This document shows, one piece after another, positions 23,612-50,052 of a stretch of 55,288 bases of DNA (position 1 is its first letter; each line of letters starts with the position of its first letter). The notes under the pieces were generated by a model. That model was not told the DNA's origin. It searched no databases and saw only the letters and a list, made by a program, of their open reading frames with translations. The stretch comes from Sulfobacillus benefaciens. GTDB taxonomy: Bacteria; Bacillota; Sulfobacillia; Sulfobacillales; Sulfobacillaceae. The stretch lies in NCBI GenBank assembly GCA_003023725.1, contig PXYT01000020.1, forward strand, positions 1 through 55,288, given 5' to 3'. The position numbers and the translations under genes were made by a program.

Positions 23612-24871
23612 TCAGGATTCGCGATAAATCCGCGCTCCCAATCGCTCCAATTTTTCTTCCAGTCCGTGATAACCCCGATCAATGTATTCTACCCCTTCAA
23701 CGAGTGTCGTGCCTAAAGCCCCGAGTCCGGCTAATACCAGTGCTGCTCCCCCGCGAATGTCCTGAGCTTGAACCGGTGCTCCAGTTAACTCCAGAACCCC
23801 CCGAACAATCGCTGTTTCTCTTTCGAGATTAATATCTGCCCCCAATCGTACCAACTCGTGAGCGTAACCAAACCGGTTCTCAAACACCGTCTCCTGAACA
23901 ACAGCTACCCCATCCGCCAAGCTGAGACAGCTCACCATCTGAGGATGGAGGTCAGTAGGAAACCCCGGATGTGGTAAGGTTTCAATGTCGACAGATTTCA
24001 ACCGTTCCCCTACTCGAATTTGGATCCGGTCCATATCTTCATTAATACTGGCTCCTGCCTGTTCCAGCTTCAGCAATACGGTTCGAAGGTGTTCGGGTAT
24101 CACGTTCACGACATTGACCACGCCTCCGGTTACCCCAGCTGCAATAAGATAAGTCCCCGCTTCCAGACGGTCAGGAATAATTTCGTGGCGTACTCCGTTC
24201 AAGACGTTCACACCCTCAATGCGAATGAGATTGGTTCCAGCTCCTCTGACTTTGGCTCCCATAGCGTTAAGGAAATTGGCCAAATCCACAACTTCCGGCT
24301 CCATGGCCGCATTTTCCAACGTGGTCGTACCGGAGGCCAGACTGGCCGCAATCATAAGATTAATAGTAGTCCCAAATGATGCACGCTCAACGTAAACACG
24401 GTTCCCGGTCAGACATTGTTCCACTTTTCCATGAATGGATCCATGTTCAAGCCACATTGTCGCCCCCAGCGCCTGAAATCCCTGGATATGAAAATTGACC
24501 GGCCTGGACCCGATTTGACACCCCCCGGGAAACGCGACATCCGCTTGCTTGAGACGGGCCAGCAACAATCCCACAACATAAGTCGAGCCTCTGAGCTTTT
24601 TGGCCAGGTCATAAGGAGCATGGTAATTGGAAAGATTGGCCGCATTGATTTGAAGATTTCGGTCGCCTATCCAGTTCACATCCGCTCCCAGCTCCCGCAA
24701 AATCTCGCACAAATCCAGAATATCGGTGTAACGGGGCACATTTTCCAACACCGACGTTCCTTCCGCTGCCAGTGCCGCGGCCGCGATAATCGGCAACGCG
24801 CTGTTCTTGGATCCTTCCACACTCACGTCCCCATGGAGGGGATAGCGTCCTTCAATCACCAGCCGTCCCAC
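23612..24871 (-). CDS. murA: UDP-N-acetylglucosamine 1-carboxyvinyltransferase
   Basis: MurA transfers enolpyruvate to UDP-GlcNAc, the committed step of peptidoglycan synthesis in the cytoplasm. The PEP-binding, fosfomycin-target Cys is in FPGGCQIGSRPV near residue 115. SKNSALPIIAAA near the N-terminus and RGGAALVLAGL near the C-terminus are typical. 419 residues. It follows guaB by 24 bases and is in one run with guaB and murC. Confidence 0.97.
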   Translation of the reverse strand: MGRLVIEGRYPLHGDVSVEGSKNSALPIIAAAALAAEGTSVLENVPRYTDILDLCEILRELGADVNWIGDRNLQINAANLSNYHAPYDLAKKLRGSTYVVGLLLARLKQADVAFPGGCQIGSRPVNFHIQGFQALGATMWLEHGSIHGKVEQCLTGNRVYVERASFGTTINLMIAASLASGTTTLENAAMEPEVVDLANFLNAMGAKVRGAGTNLIRIEGVNVLNGVRHEIIPDRLEAGTYLIAAGVTGGVVNVVNVIPEHLRTVLLKLEQAGASINEDMDRIQIRVGERLKSVDIETLPHPGFPTDLHPQMVSCLSLADGVAVVQETVFENRFGYAHELVRLGADINLERETAIVRGVLELTGAPVQAQDIRGGAALVLAGLGALGTTLVEGVEYIDRGYHGLEEKLERLGARIYRES

Positions 24872-46104: not shown

Positions 46105-47019
46105 TCATGAAAGCTCTCGGCCTTGGTCTTCTTCCTGCGGACGGCATAAAGCCCATTCTAAAACATCGGTCAACTCAAAATCGAATTGTTGCAGATAATA
46201 ACGCGCCGTATCCACCAACGCCTGCGCCGGCATGAAACCCACCAGTTCCGTTCGAAATATGCTGACACCCCAGCGCCCTGCTTCCTCCCGCACCATTTCC
46301 AGAGCCCTGGGAAGGGGAGTTTTGGGATAGTCGACAAGGTTCATGGAAACCTGGACCTTCCCCTGACTCACGGTATTCATGGGCAATGCTTTGACCCCAA
46401 TCAGCCCGCCCGTGGATCCGCGCACAGATTCCGCTACCTTCCCGGCCACATCCATGCTATCCGTATTCAATAAGACATTAAAGGCGATCAAAGGATTTCT
46501 GGCTCCCACCGCGACAGCTCCTGCGGTCGGATGGGGGTATGCCGGCCCAAAGTCCGGAGGATCATTCGCCATTTTGGATGACAATCCTTCAAATTGCCCC
46601 CGACGAACGTCCGCCAGGTTTTTATGGTACGACTTTGTGGCCGCCATTTCATATAAATAGACAGGCAGCTGAAGCTCTTTACCCATGCGGCGTCCAAGTT
46701 TCTCGGCTACTTGCACCGCATTCTCCATTGTCGCACCTACTAACGGCACGAATGGCATTACGTCGACGGCCCCCATGCGGGGATGCGTGCCCTGATGCAC
46801 CCGCAAATCAATGTATTCCACAGCGGTCCGAGCCGCACGAAACATCGCCTCGGACAAGTCCTCAGCTTCTCCCACAGCCGTCATCACCGAACGGTTGTGA
46901 TCGGCGTCCATAGCTATACCCAACACACGAACGCCTGGAATTTCAGCCGATCGTGCAATAGCCTCCACAACGTCGGGGCGGCGTCCTTCCGAAAAATTGG
47001 GAACGCATTCCAATATCAT
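46105..47019 (-). CDS. ftcD: Glutamate formimidoyltransferase
   Basis: FtcD transfers the formimino group between formiminoglutamate and THF, and in some bacteria also handles 5-formyl-THF. It begins LECVPNFSEGRRPDVVEAI and has VHQGTHPRMGAVDVMPFVP and GVKALPM. 304 residues means it lacks the cyclodeaminase domain. No other histidine-degradation gene is near. It overlaps the oxidoreductase upstream as ATGA, an unusual partner. Confidence 0.94.
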   Translation of the reverse strand: MILECVPNFSEGRRPDVVEAIARSAEIPGVRVLGIAMDADHNRSVMTAVGEAEDLSEAMFRAARTAVEYIDLRVHQGTHPRMGAVDVMPFVPLVGATMENAVQVAEKLGRRMGKELQLPVYLYEMAATKSYHKNLADVRRGQFEGLSSKMANDPPDFGPAYPHPTAGAVAVGARNPLIAFNVLLNTDSMDVAGKVAESVRGSTGGLIGVKALPMNTVSQGKVQVSMNLVDYPKTPLPRALEMVREEAGRWGVSIFRTELVGFMPAQALVDTARYYLQQFDFELTDVLEWALCRPQEEDQGRELS

Positions 47020-49067
47020 GATGGTTCCTCCCGTCTACAAGCTTCGACTCTTACCCAAGCGTCATAAAACGTAGAACCGCCGCCATAGTCCGATAATTCC
47101 TGGCTCGTTAACTGATTCACGTTGACACCGTCTTTATCGCGGTTCCACCTGACGGCGTAACTCAGAAGCAGTCCGGCCGATACCCGCTCGCTGGCCTGCA
47201 CTATGAATCTGGCCGAACCTTGGGTATTGGAAAGAAGGACTTCGTCGCCGTCCTTAAGATGGAGCGAGCTCATATCCTGGACATGCATATAAACTGTGGG
47301 TTCCGCCTCGTGGGCAAGCAGACTTGTGATATTGCCGAAACTTGACTTGATGGTATTTTTTCTAGAGGGGGTCAGGAGTCGAAACCCAACCCCCTCCGAG
47401 TGAAAATTCACGGGATTTTCCTTCACTTTTTGACTGTCCGCAATGGGCAAAGGCTCAAGGCGCAAGGCGTGCAGAGGGATATTAAAGTCGATAAACGGGC
47501 GGAATTGTGGTGAAATGTTCACTTTTTGCACGGGATTGCGCTGAAGAGATTCCCAACTGATTCCCTCAAGCCAGGGGCTAGACGTCTGCAGAGCCTGGCG
47601 GACTAATGTTTCATCCGAGTCCTTGGCCCAGCCTTCTCCTCCATAGCCCACCGCCTTGGCAAGCCGGCGGAAGAACTCTGTGTTCGACACCGCTTCTCCC
47701 TGTGCCTCAACAGCCTTGTGATTCAATTGAATATAGCGGTGCCAGTAAGACAAGTGTAAATCGAGAATTTCTGGAAACATTGCCGCAGGAAGCACCCAAT
47801 CCGCATAACGGGCCGTATCCGTCATCATTTGTTCGTGCACCACGGTCAACAAATCCTCCCGCGACAAGCCTTCAAGTACCGCCGATTGGTCAGGAGCCGT
47901 AGCCGCCGGATTAGCGTTATAGACGATTAATGCCTTGACGGGAGGATTCAAATCCGGAGACAAAGCCCGTCCCAATTGCAGCATATTGATCTCCCGAGGG
48001 GTTCCCTGCAGCAAATCAGGTCGTGTCAGAACTTTCCAGTTGATCGGAAAAGCGTCCCCGTTGCCAAGCAAATGTCCTCCTCCGGAATGACGATAAGACC
48101 CACTTAAAATGGACAATGCAGATATTGCCCAAATAGCCTGGGCCCCATAGCGATGCCGCTGCACACCGTATCCGGTGCGAATCAGCAAGGGAGGAACCCG
48201 AATCAGTTCATGGGCAAGATTTTCAATGACGGATTGGGTGAGTCCGGTGGCTTGCTCCGTTCGAGACAAGGTCCAAGGCTCCACGGCCTGACGGTATTGC
48301 TCCAAACCCGACCCGTAGTCCGCAACAAAATCGGCATCAAAGAGCGACTCTCTTAACCAATAACGGCCTATGCCCATAGCCAACATAGCGTCGGAACCGG
48401 GATTAACGGCGATATATGTCCCGTAACGTGCGGCAGTTTCGGTCTTTACCGGATCAATGACGATAACCTTGGCTCCCCCGGCAACTGCTTGGTCCAAAAG
48501 AGGAATCTCATGCAGGTTGGTAGCGACCGGATTCGAACCCCACAAGACAATCCGGCGAGTTTGAGGAATCATCTCCGGATCGGGGCCAATGCGAGAGCCA
48601 TATACCCACTTAAGCGCAGCATCAGCCGATGCGCTGCAAATCGTTCTTGCCAATCGGCTGGCCCCAATCCTATGAAAAAACCGCCGGTCCATGGACGCCT
48701 CGCTCAAGACTCCCATATTTCCCGAATAACTATAGGGAAGAATGGCCTCTCCGCCGAATTTCCGCACAATTTGGCCGAGGCGGAATCCGATGTCGGCCAT
48801 CGCCTCATCCCAACTGCTGCGAATAAAAAGTCCTGAACCTTTTGGACCCTGACGGCGCAGGGGGAAAAGAATACGGTCCTCATGGCTAAGGCGTTGCAGG
48901 TAGCGATTGACCTTTAAGCAAGCAAAGCCACGCGTTACAGGATGATTGTGATCGCCTTGAATTTTCACTACACGGTTCCCCGAAACCGTCAACTCCAAGC
49001 CACAGGTATCATAGCAATCATGAGGACAGACCCCATGCACTGGATAACTCTCCACGTTCTGATCCAC
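47016..49067 (-). CDS. Molybdopterin oxidoreductase (DMSO reductase family)
   Basis: A molybdo-bis-MGD enzyme of 683 residues. An N-terminal CPHDCYDTCGLEL plus the Cys in GFACLKVNRY bind a [4Fe-4S] cluster. WGSNPVATNLHEIPLL and VIDPVKTETAARYGTYIAV are cofactor-binding, and the C-terminal molydopterin dinucleotide domain starts near FRLLTPSRKNTIKSSF. I see no selenocysteine codon. There is no signal peptide, so it is cytoplasmic like the YoaE/formate dehydrogenase-like group. The substrate is unknown. It could use cofactor made with MoaC and MoaB at 18296-19259. Confidence 0.92.
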   Translation of the reverse strand: MDQNVESYPVHGVCPHDCYDTCGLELTVSGNRVVKIQGDHNHPVTRGFACLKVNRYLQRLSHEDRILFPLRRQGPKGSGLFIRSSWDEAMADIGFRLGQIVRKFGGEAILPYSYSGNMGVLSEASMDRRFFHRIGASRLARTICSASADAALKWVYGSRIGPDPEMIPQTRRIVLWGSNPVATNLHEIPLLDQAVAGGAKVIVIDPVKTETAARYGTYIAVNPGSDAMLAMGIGRYWLRESLFDADFVADYGSGLEQYRQAVEPWTLSRTEQATGLTQSVIENLAHELIRVPPLLIRTGYGVQRHRYGAQAIWAISALSILSGSYRHSGGGHLLGNGDAFPINWKVLTRPDLLQGTPREINMLQLGRALSPDLNPPVKALIVYNANPAATAPDQSAVLEGLSREDLLTVVHEQMMTDTARYADWVLPAAMFPEILDLHLSYWHRYIQLNHKAVEAQGEAVSNTEFFRRLAKAVGYGGEGWAKDSDETLVRQALQTSSPWLEGISWESLQRNPVQKVNISPQFRPFIDFNIPLHALRLEPLPIADSQKVKENPVNFHSEGVGFRLLTPSRKNTIKSSFGNITSLLAHEAEPTVYMHVQDMSSLHLKDGDEVLLSNTQGSARFIVQASERVSAGLLLSYAVRWNRDKDGVNVNQLTSQELSDYGGGSTFYDAWVRVEACRREEPS

Positions 49068-49094: not shown

Positions 49095-49631
49095 TTAGAG
49101 ATGCAGCGACGGCTTCCCCCCCGAAGTAATCACAAGCCGAGCCCACATGCCCGACACTTCGTGTTCCGGCACCAGGCTTGCCAGACGGTAATTCCCCACC
49201 CGCGAAGCCCGAAAGGAAAAGACCTGAGTGGCTTGAGGCGGCAAACCCGTACTCAGATCACGGGTTGACGCCCCTGGAAAGGCCGCCTTTCGGCTTCGGG
49301 CGGTTGATACAACGGCTAAGGAATTGGACAGACCCGAATCATTGACAAAGTGAATTGTCACCTTGTAGTTTTTCGGTACCGTCACTTGCATAGCCCCGTT
49401 CTGGGTTCCGTTGAAGTTAAACCCATGATTTTGGTAGCCGGCAATCACAGTTAGTTGAATGGAGTGCGCAGAACGATTCACACGCATCCAACGCTTTGTA
49501 CTGTGGGACGGAGAAGGAACCACCATCGACGACACCTTTTGGGGCGGTGGACCGGCAAACAGTCCGCAACCCGACAACCCCATCCCTAAAAGGCCTAATA
49601 TCAGCACATAACGAGATTTCATCGCCATCAT
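49095..49631 (-). CDS. Sulfocyanin-like lipoprotein lacking copper ligands
   Basis: A cupredoxin resembling sulfocyanin (SoxE), the blue copper protein of acidophiles. The N-terminus is a lipoprotein signal ending LSGC (Cys22). The fold segments align as FNFNGTQNGAMQVTVP, NYKVTIHFVN, FPGASTRDLSTG and VPEHEVSGMWARLVI. Sulfocyanins bind copper with His (in LPHN), Cys (before the xPGH loop), His and Met. Here the first His is replaced (LSNS), the Cys is Ser (LASLVPEH), while His and Met remain. It probably does not bind copper as a blue site. The start is one of the ATG codons near 49631. Confidence 0.72.
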   Translation of the reverse strand: MMAMKSRYVLILGLLGMGLSGCGLFAGPPPQKVSSMVVPSPSHSTKRWMRVNRSAHSIQLTVIAGYQNHGFNFNGTQNGAMQVTVPKNYKVTIHFVNDSGLSNSLAVVSTARSRKAAFPGASTRDLSTGLPPQATQVFSFRASRVGNYRLASLVPEHEVSGMWARLVITSGGKPSLHL

Positions 49632-49832: not shown

Positions 49833-49838
49833 TTCACA

Positions 49839-50052
49839 AACACCCAATGAATGGGAAGAGTCAGGTGATTCTCCAGAAAGTCGGTAGGATGGAACCCGAT
49901 GAGTTGCCTGAACCCGATTCCGCCCAGGAGGATGTCAGCGATGAGTTGGCCGCAGTGCTGCGTTATAGCCAAAGAGAGGGCAGAATGTAACATCTGTCAA
50001 ATAGGGTGGCACCGCGGTGACTACCGTCCCTAATGGTTTAGGGGCGTTTTTT
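49839..50052 (+). ncRNA. T-box leader, probably tRNA-Ser responsive
   Basis: A tRNA-sensing leader. The Stem I signature runs from GGGAAGAG through CCAGAAAGTCGGTAGGATGG and GAACCCGA. The T-box AGGGTGGCACCGCGG lies at 50003-50017, then a terminator. The variable base in the T-box bulge is C (TGGC), which pairs with a tRNA discriminator G, as in bacterial tRNA-Ser and not tRNA-Pro (A). A TCC serine codon occurs at the 3' side of the specifier region, though the triplets right after the GAA are CCC/CCG. Downstream serA supports serine. Confidence 0.9.
50025..50052 (+). terminator. T-box leader terminator
   Basis: CGTCCCTAA and TTTAGGGGCG pair (one G-U), followed by six Ts. The antiterminator uses the T-box 5' of it. 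Uncharged tRNA should prevent termination. Confidence 0.88.

Follow-up and report, generated by a model that had tools for sequence, protein, structure and literature searches.

A sulfocyanin-fold lipoprotein of Sulfobacillus benefaciens with two of its four copper ligands replaced, and the recurrent loss of copper ligands among its SoxE relatives

Among described systems, the closest to the protein considered here is sulfocyanin (SoxE; PF06525, TIGR03094), for which the copper ligands of Q53765 are given as H110, C171, H176 and M181, with the spacing C-x4-H-x4-M (PMC517927 Table 2). In Sulfobacillus, iron oxidation has been ascribed to "sulfocyanin" genes found with PF06525 (PMC4062416, PMC6315122, PMC6803676), and the passages of these papers that concern SoxE treat it as a blue copper protein and do not discuss its ligands. 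Three genes of S. thermotolerans Kr1 have been annotated as sulfocyanins, and transcripts of the "sulfocyanin" Sulth_0453 are reported to have dropped when another iron oxidizer was present (PMC6315122). We found no report of ligand-less sulfocyanins in the open-access literature. Related tasks and shapes have been described in other families. PCuAC (PF04314) is presented as a cupredoxin-fold Cu(I) chaperone with His and Met ligands that builds CuA together with Sco (PMC6696091, PMC9145763). In Bacillus subtilis its place in CuA assembly is said to be taken by CtaK/YtkA, a Bacillus lipoprotein with conserved His and Met on which cytochrome c oxidase depends when copper is low (PMC9145763).

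The gene under study lies in a window of 55,288 nucleotides of Sulfobacillus benefaciens DNA, by which we mean the whole stretch that was analysed. An earlier note on this DNA had proposed a lipoprotein of the sulfocyanin (SoxE) fold, a proposal borne out by a PF06525 match, an LSGC lipobox and a predicted cupredoxin model; the sulfocyanin motifs that it named were all found, on an open reading frame whose strand, unstated there, is minus. PF06525 is the sole Pfam family to score above its cut-off (E 1e-12; 48.2 bits, cut-off 21), and the sulfocyanin model TIGR03094 matches at E 7e-12 with 45.1 bits, far short of its equivalog cut-off of 168.4. The protein is laid out as a signal peptide, a linker and a single SoxE domain. 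Translation probably starts at the third Met codon (MKSRYV), and orthologues align from MKxxY onward. The lipidation site by motif, C22, is the only Cys of the protein and is unchanged in 7/7 genus orthologues; being the lipid anchor, it cannot replace the missing copper Cys. A promoter scan returned no promoter-like minus-strand site for the gene, and an Rfam scan at the gathering score returned nothing close to it. The structure prediction that the note had suggested, an AlphaFold model built with 22 sequences, gives a Greek-key cupredoxin fold with confidence (block-mean pLDDT 95-98 over residues 81-170, core about 97; pTM 0.72). The best structural neighbours of the model are rusticyanin, auracyanin, copper nitrite reductases and multicopper oxidases, with VIA-align Z of about 12-13 against rusticyanin and auracyanin.

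At the type-1 copper positions the protein reads N103-S152-H157-M162 (N-S-H-M) instead of H-C-H-M, the set found in 38/38 compared intact relatives (Table 1). Comparison with Q53765 and an alignment to SoxE relatives, which the note had also advised, confirmed that these positions are correctly placed. The spacing S152-x4-H157-x4-M162 is that of sulfocyanin, and the N103 and S152 columns of a 67-row alignment contain H and C in all intact relatives, so that the note's account, in which Cys has become Ser, the first His is lost and only the last His and Met are left, holds by alignment and spacing alike. Chance or misaligned ligands are ruled out by the spacing, by the alignment and by N-S-H-M in 7/7 genus orthologues; the same orthologues rule out a sequencing error. 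A single base separates each new codon from the ancestral type (CAY to AAY, TGY to AGY). With two of four ligands replaced, an ordinary blue copper site would be impossible in this protein, as the note had supposed. Only 2/4 of the ligands that define a sulfocyanin (two His, one Cys and one Met) are present, and for this reason the protein should not be called one. Judged by sequence, it nevertheless belongs to PF06525 by descent: it is like sulfocyanin in fold, in FNFNG, in the spacing of the ligand loop and in extracytoplasmic anchoring, and unlike it in the Asn and Ser at the first His and Cys positions, in its score below the equivalog cut-off and in the lack of any predicted type-1 site. 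The residues T76, S99, N103, L105, S152, S160 and A164 are common to 9/9 N-S-H-M rows, and each occurs in at most 11% of the 38 intact rows. As a statistical correlate of copper loss S160 was rejected: only 2 independent pairs fall on well-supported branches, and we therefore make no statistical claim for it. The archaeal sulfocyanin signature, as given in PMC517927, permits S or A at the equivalent position, so Ser there is not incompatible with copper.

Table 1. Positions of the gene, its ligand-site codons and neighbouring features, numbered from the first letter of the window.
Feature	Position	Strand	Basis or remark
Ligand-less sulfocyanin-fold lipoprotein gene	49095..49631	(-)	178 aa; SoxE profile match, orthologue alignment
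Lipoprotein signal peptide, end LSGC	49566..49622	(-)	Lipobox motif, by eye
N103, first copper His position (AAT)	49323..49325	(-)	N in 9/9 N-S-H-M rows, H in 38/38 intact rows
S152, copper Cys position (AGC)	49176..49178	(-)	S in 9/9 N-S-H-M rows, C in 38/38 intact rows
H157, second His, kept	49161..49163	(-)	H in 9/9 N-S-H-M and 38/38 intact rows; Q in 7/7 membrane-fusion paralogue rows
S160, 2 residues ahead of axial Met	49152..49154	(-)	Ser in 24/26 ligand-less rows, 0/38 intact rows
M162, axial Met, kept	49146..49148	(-)	M in 9/9 N-S-H-M and 38/38 intact rows
Molybdopterin oxidoreductase (DMSO-reductase family)	47016..49067	(-)	683 aa; 27 bp downstream; conserved neighbour, probably not partner
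T-box leader	49838-50034	(+)	Before divergent aminotransferase-serA genes

Orthologues occur in 7/34 genomes of the family, all of genus g1 (Sulfobacillus), and none was found in the eighth genus genome, which is 61% complete; N-S-H-M is present in 7/7. The same set appears in two relatives, 41-43% identical, that belong to other families of the class (the class search covered 154 genomes, with 20 matches outside the genus read for ligand states), and the N-S-H-M rows, 9/9 members, thus come from three families of that class, with identities of 41-79%. In a 398-genome phylum sample, where at 1e-25 only the own genome, G087 and G089 match, no further N-S-H-M protein is known, and the sole ligand states read among the G087 and G089 matches, those of the G087 rows, are H-C-H-M. 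By the Nei-Gojobori method dN/dS is 0.056-0.137 for the four closest pairs, deeper pairs being affected by dS saturation, and values of 0.06-0.14 indicate that the protein is not decaying. The ligand loss is conserved under purifying selection.

The note had presented this protein as a single odd case. The oddity itself stands, and the singularity falls, given at least four independent ligand-less lineages. The genome of the window encodes five SoxE proteins, 0/5 of them intact, and the intact paralogue that the note had thought worth seeking there was not found when the protein, the Pfam model and a profile made from 10 intact relatives served as queries. A weak SoxE match in the window at 24122-24397 lies inside an EPSP synthase family gene (MurA-like) and is therefore false. 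Across the seven Sulfobacillus genomes with matches, 5/34 SoxE proteins are intact and 29/34 are predicted to be unable to hold blue copper; in G015 the count is 0/4 intact, and of the three SoxE proteins found in S. thermotolerans Kr1 (G019) only one has kept its ligands. The family set comprised 50 proteins (49 matches and the window protein), from which G031_C181, G012_C58 and G001_C15 were dropped as fragments or weak matches. A tally of 47 SoxE rows gave 13 H-C-H-M, 7 N-S-H-M, 8 N-S-Q-M, 17 with E and D/N and without a ligand set, and 2 H-S-D-L. In trees from which the four ligand columns were withheld, four transitions between the intact and the lost state are required, and by this account the ligands were lost at least four times independently. 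What is left in the ligand-less lineages differs (N-S-Q-M, H-S-D-L, E-D-x-x, H-S-Q-M), and most are without any metal-binding set. The N-S-Q-M proteins nest among intact ones, apart from N-S-H-M, which implies two separate origins for the paired change of His to Asn and Cys to Ser.

Some details of the trees are less firm. The first, which also took 20 of 43 named loci, has the G002 protein as the nearest intact relative; long branches meet where N-S-H-M, H-S-D-L and G002 join, and the rooting and some deep branches are weak. The second tree gained 20 rows from the class search; it excluded four rows of the H-C-H-H type, ten of the E-D type, five more that are intact and four duplicates, as did the counts of 9, 38 and 26 rows. 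With the added rows, support for grouping N-S-H-M with H-S-D-L went from 100/97 to 88/94, and support for grouping it with G002 from 97/84 to 59/67. That the nine N-S-H-M rows are monophyletic is neither rejected (p-AU 0.50) nor proved.

The wider family shows further variety. An actinobacterial SoxE relative (L146:5860-6507) has H-S-Q-M on a long branch, apparently a further independent loss. Two proteins near N-S-H-M in the tree (L056:7732-8469 and G029:C57:60993-61379) are H-S-D-L, with Cys changed to Ser, the second His to Asp and Met to Leu. The axial Met is His (GHW vs GMW) in 22/43 named loci, mostly of Verrucomicrobiota (e.g., L133, L145, L150); the four aligned rows of this type are H-C-H-H and may form an unusual copper site. 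Intact SoxE domains are joined to PQQ-dehydrogenase beta-propellers at L135:4255-6450 and L155:4312-6405, and another ends a 515-aa protein (L202; G088:C49:64934-65362) whose first part looks cytochrome b-like by eye. A polytopic membrane protein (L050:7560-9284; L049:8520-9425; L055:7912-8832), the G008 copy of which is without a Pfam match, has an intact cytochrome c-SoxE as its neighbour in other genera; in Sulfobacillus it is fused to N-S-Q-M SoxE (31-37% identity).

The two N-S-H-M proteins outside the genus stand in telling surroundings, each in one genome. In G101 (family f35) the N-S-H-M domain forms the C-terminal end of a protein of 534 aa that begins with a SCO1/SenC part (PF02630, residues 66-193, 2e-18; CxxxC as CTTIC at 96, His at 181), with a thioredoxin-like stretch between this part and SoxE. 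A second SCO gene directly follows the fusion and a CcmF gene lies about 4.5 kb off. Proteins matching the SCO-thioredoxin part alone are common in the class, Sulfobacillus included. In G076 (family f23; locus L121), the metagenome assembly Bacillota HOT.CON.150, the N-S-H-M gene stands between a COX operon and a UbiA-family gene (PF01040; CtaB-like by position), the operon comprising a SCO-like match (102351-103385), a cupredoxin-like 162-aa protein, CoxII, CoxI and CoxIII. A comparable setting, pointing in the same direction, recurs among the E-D type loci, 9/17 of which adjoin a Tat-signal cupredoxin-like protein of about 221 aa (cup221). The series SoxE, cup221, CoxII (with CuA motif), CoxI and CoxIII is complete in six of these nine, S. 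thermotolerans Kr1 included, the other three ending at contig ends, and 8/17 E-D loci have no cup221 neighbour in the stretch read except for one weak match. The G076 oxidase is homologous to that of the E-D operon (identity 62% for CoxI, 52% for CoxII and 59% for cup221), so that ligand-less SoxE proteins of two independent lineages are neighbours of one kind of oxidase. The E-D order is that of Sulth_0449-0453 in S. thermosulfidooxidans, and this gene order suggests that Sulth_0453, a transcript highlighted for iron oxidation, is also ligand-less. At L111:3732-8362, and likewise at L107, L091, L092, L110 and L113, an aa3-like oxidase operon opens with a fully ligand-less SoxE lipoprotein. 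The protein cup221 belongs to no cupredoxin Pfam family and has one Cys, at 200, with His and Met close by; it may be the real electron carrier of the aa3-like operon.

In Sulfobacillus, the surroundings of the SoxE-fold gene showed neither an oxidase gene nor a SCO gene. On the minus strand it is followed by the molybdoenzyme and glutamate formiminotransferase genes and then by acpS, nnrDE and alr (the last three by eye), and it is flanked by divergent genes for a BhcA/PhnW-like aminotransferase and serA. All six other genomes share this order. The syntenic region of G008 and G030 has instead an intact cytochrome c-SoxE fusion on the opposite strand, lying about 2 kb away from the gene for formiminotransferase and 3 kb away from that for the molybdoenzyme. 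The T-box leader in Table 1, which came up in Rfam under an E-value threshold, is a full-length match with E 3.6e-19 and 85.3 bits, and the Rfam gathering score of 93 is not reached.

We infer, tentatively, that the protein is a pseudo-cupredoxin derived from sulfocyanin that now serves as an accessory in oxidase assembly or copper handling. A membrane-anchored, extracytoplasmic protein would have descended from SoxE, the changes of the first His to Asn and of Cys to Ser would have removed the blue copper site, and with that site abolished the protein would no longer be an electron carrier. It would have been retained in copper handling or in the assembly of a heme-copper (CuA) oxidase, in the manner of a Sco partner. 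The H157/M162 loop may hold Cu(I) weakly and hand it over, or it may dock to Sco or subunit II, in which variant N103 and S152, perhaps with S160, would fill the empty site by hydrogen bonds. Copper handling, the partners and the same role for the Sulfobacillus copy, despite the lack of oxidase genes nearby, we likewise infer. Of the new roles that the earlier note had imagined (structural, metal delivery or sensing, beside a molybdoenzyme), metal delivery has gained support from the association of the distant N-S-H-M relatives with SCO1/SenC and with genes of cytochrome oxidase. The N-S-H-M rows retain H157 and M162 in 9/9 cases, and the other ligand-less lineages lose the second His; both residues are invariant in intact relatives too, so their retention could simply be inherited. 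PCuAC gave 0 matches in 34/34 family genomes, the own genome included, and is absent from G076 and G101 as well. The protein is like PCuAC in its cupredoxin-like fold outside the cell, its candidate His and Met ligands and its relatives' link to Sco and CuA oxidase, and unlike it in giving no sequence match, in its descent from a blue copper protein and in lacking, by eye, the motif H(M)X10MX21HXM, an absence that counts against a copper role. So does the fact that one His and one Met make a poor copper site. CtaK/YtkA, a lipoprotein of Bacillota in which His and Met are conserved, offers a parallel; it is, however, a separate family (PF13115) that coexists with the SoxE-fold protein, and its presence in 8/8 genus genomes means that the chaperone slot may be filled already.

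A purely structural or docking role, as a metal-free scaffold or accessory subunit of a surface or respiratory complex, is possible, though we hold it to be somewhat doubtful. It would account for a loss that recurs at least four times with differing leftovers, most without a metal-binding set, and the Ser at 160 of 24/26 ligand-less and 0/38 intact rows looks like the repacking of an empty site. It also has a named precedent in the early nodulin-like proteins, plant phytocyanins described as keeping the cupredoxin fold with the copper ligands lost (PMC10048054), albeit these are plant arabinogalactan proteins with no link to respiration. The invariance of H157 and M162 among N-S-H-M proteins down to 41% identity, when other ligand-less lineages lose the second His, speaks against such a role, and the SCO fusion points toward copper. 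That the site has instead been reshaped (type 2-like or Cu(I) only), with redox work continuing through His, Met and perhaps Asn and Ser, is improbable: two ligands are retained and four positions are fixed in 9/9 rows, but there is no thiolate and a single His, in 8/8 family rows of the second N-S lineage the remaining His is replaced by Gln, and no solved structure with N-S-H-M ligands stood out among the PDB matches of the model, whose hits were not inspected singly for ligands.

The functional link to the adjacent molybdoenzyme, which the earlier note had suggested, finds little in the comparison to sustain it. The two genes are adjacent on the same strand in 7/7 genomes, with 20-119 bp between their aligned parts, and this could mark the protein as a partner, sensor or maturation factor of the enzyme; we consider that very improbable, as no signal peptide is seen by eye in the enzyme, 18 of the 25 family genomes (among 34) that have it are without the SoxE-fold protein, and the G076 and G101 N-S-H-M genes have no such neighbour within the stretches read. 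Adjacency is thus a weak clue to function. Scarcely credible is a decaying, functionless leftover of gene duplication: although the intact G002 relative is adjacent in the tree, the dN/dS values given above, a frame open in 7/7 genus genomes and an invariant lipobox and synteny stand against it. Returning to the accessory role in oxidase assembly or copper handling, it has a broader form that we regard as unlikely, in which, on at least four occasions in acidophilic Bacillota, sulfocyanin would have become a copper-less accessory to heme-copper oxidases, the Cys being cleared each time and Ser mostly placed two residues before the axial Met, with the N-S-H-M branch as a new Sco-partner copper chaperone. 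If true, an electron carrier would have been converted into a tool that metallates its own terminal oxidase.

For Sulfobacillus, where so large a share of SoxE proteins (29/34) would be unable to hold blue copper and none is intact in the genome of the window, part of the electron path of iron oxidation must then lie elsewhere. For the family as a whole, a natural set of copper-less cupredoxins opens the study of how metal sites are emptied and reused.
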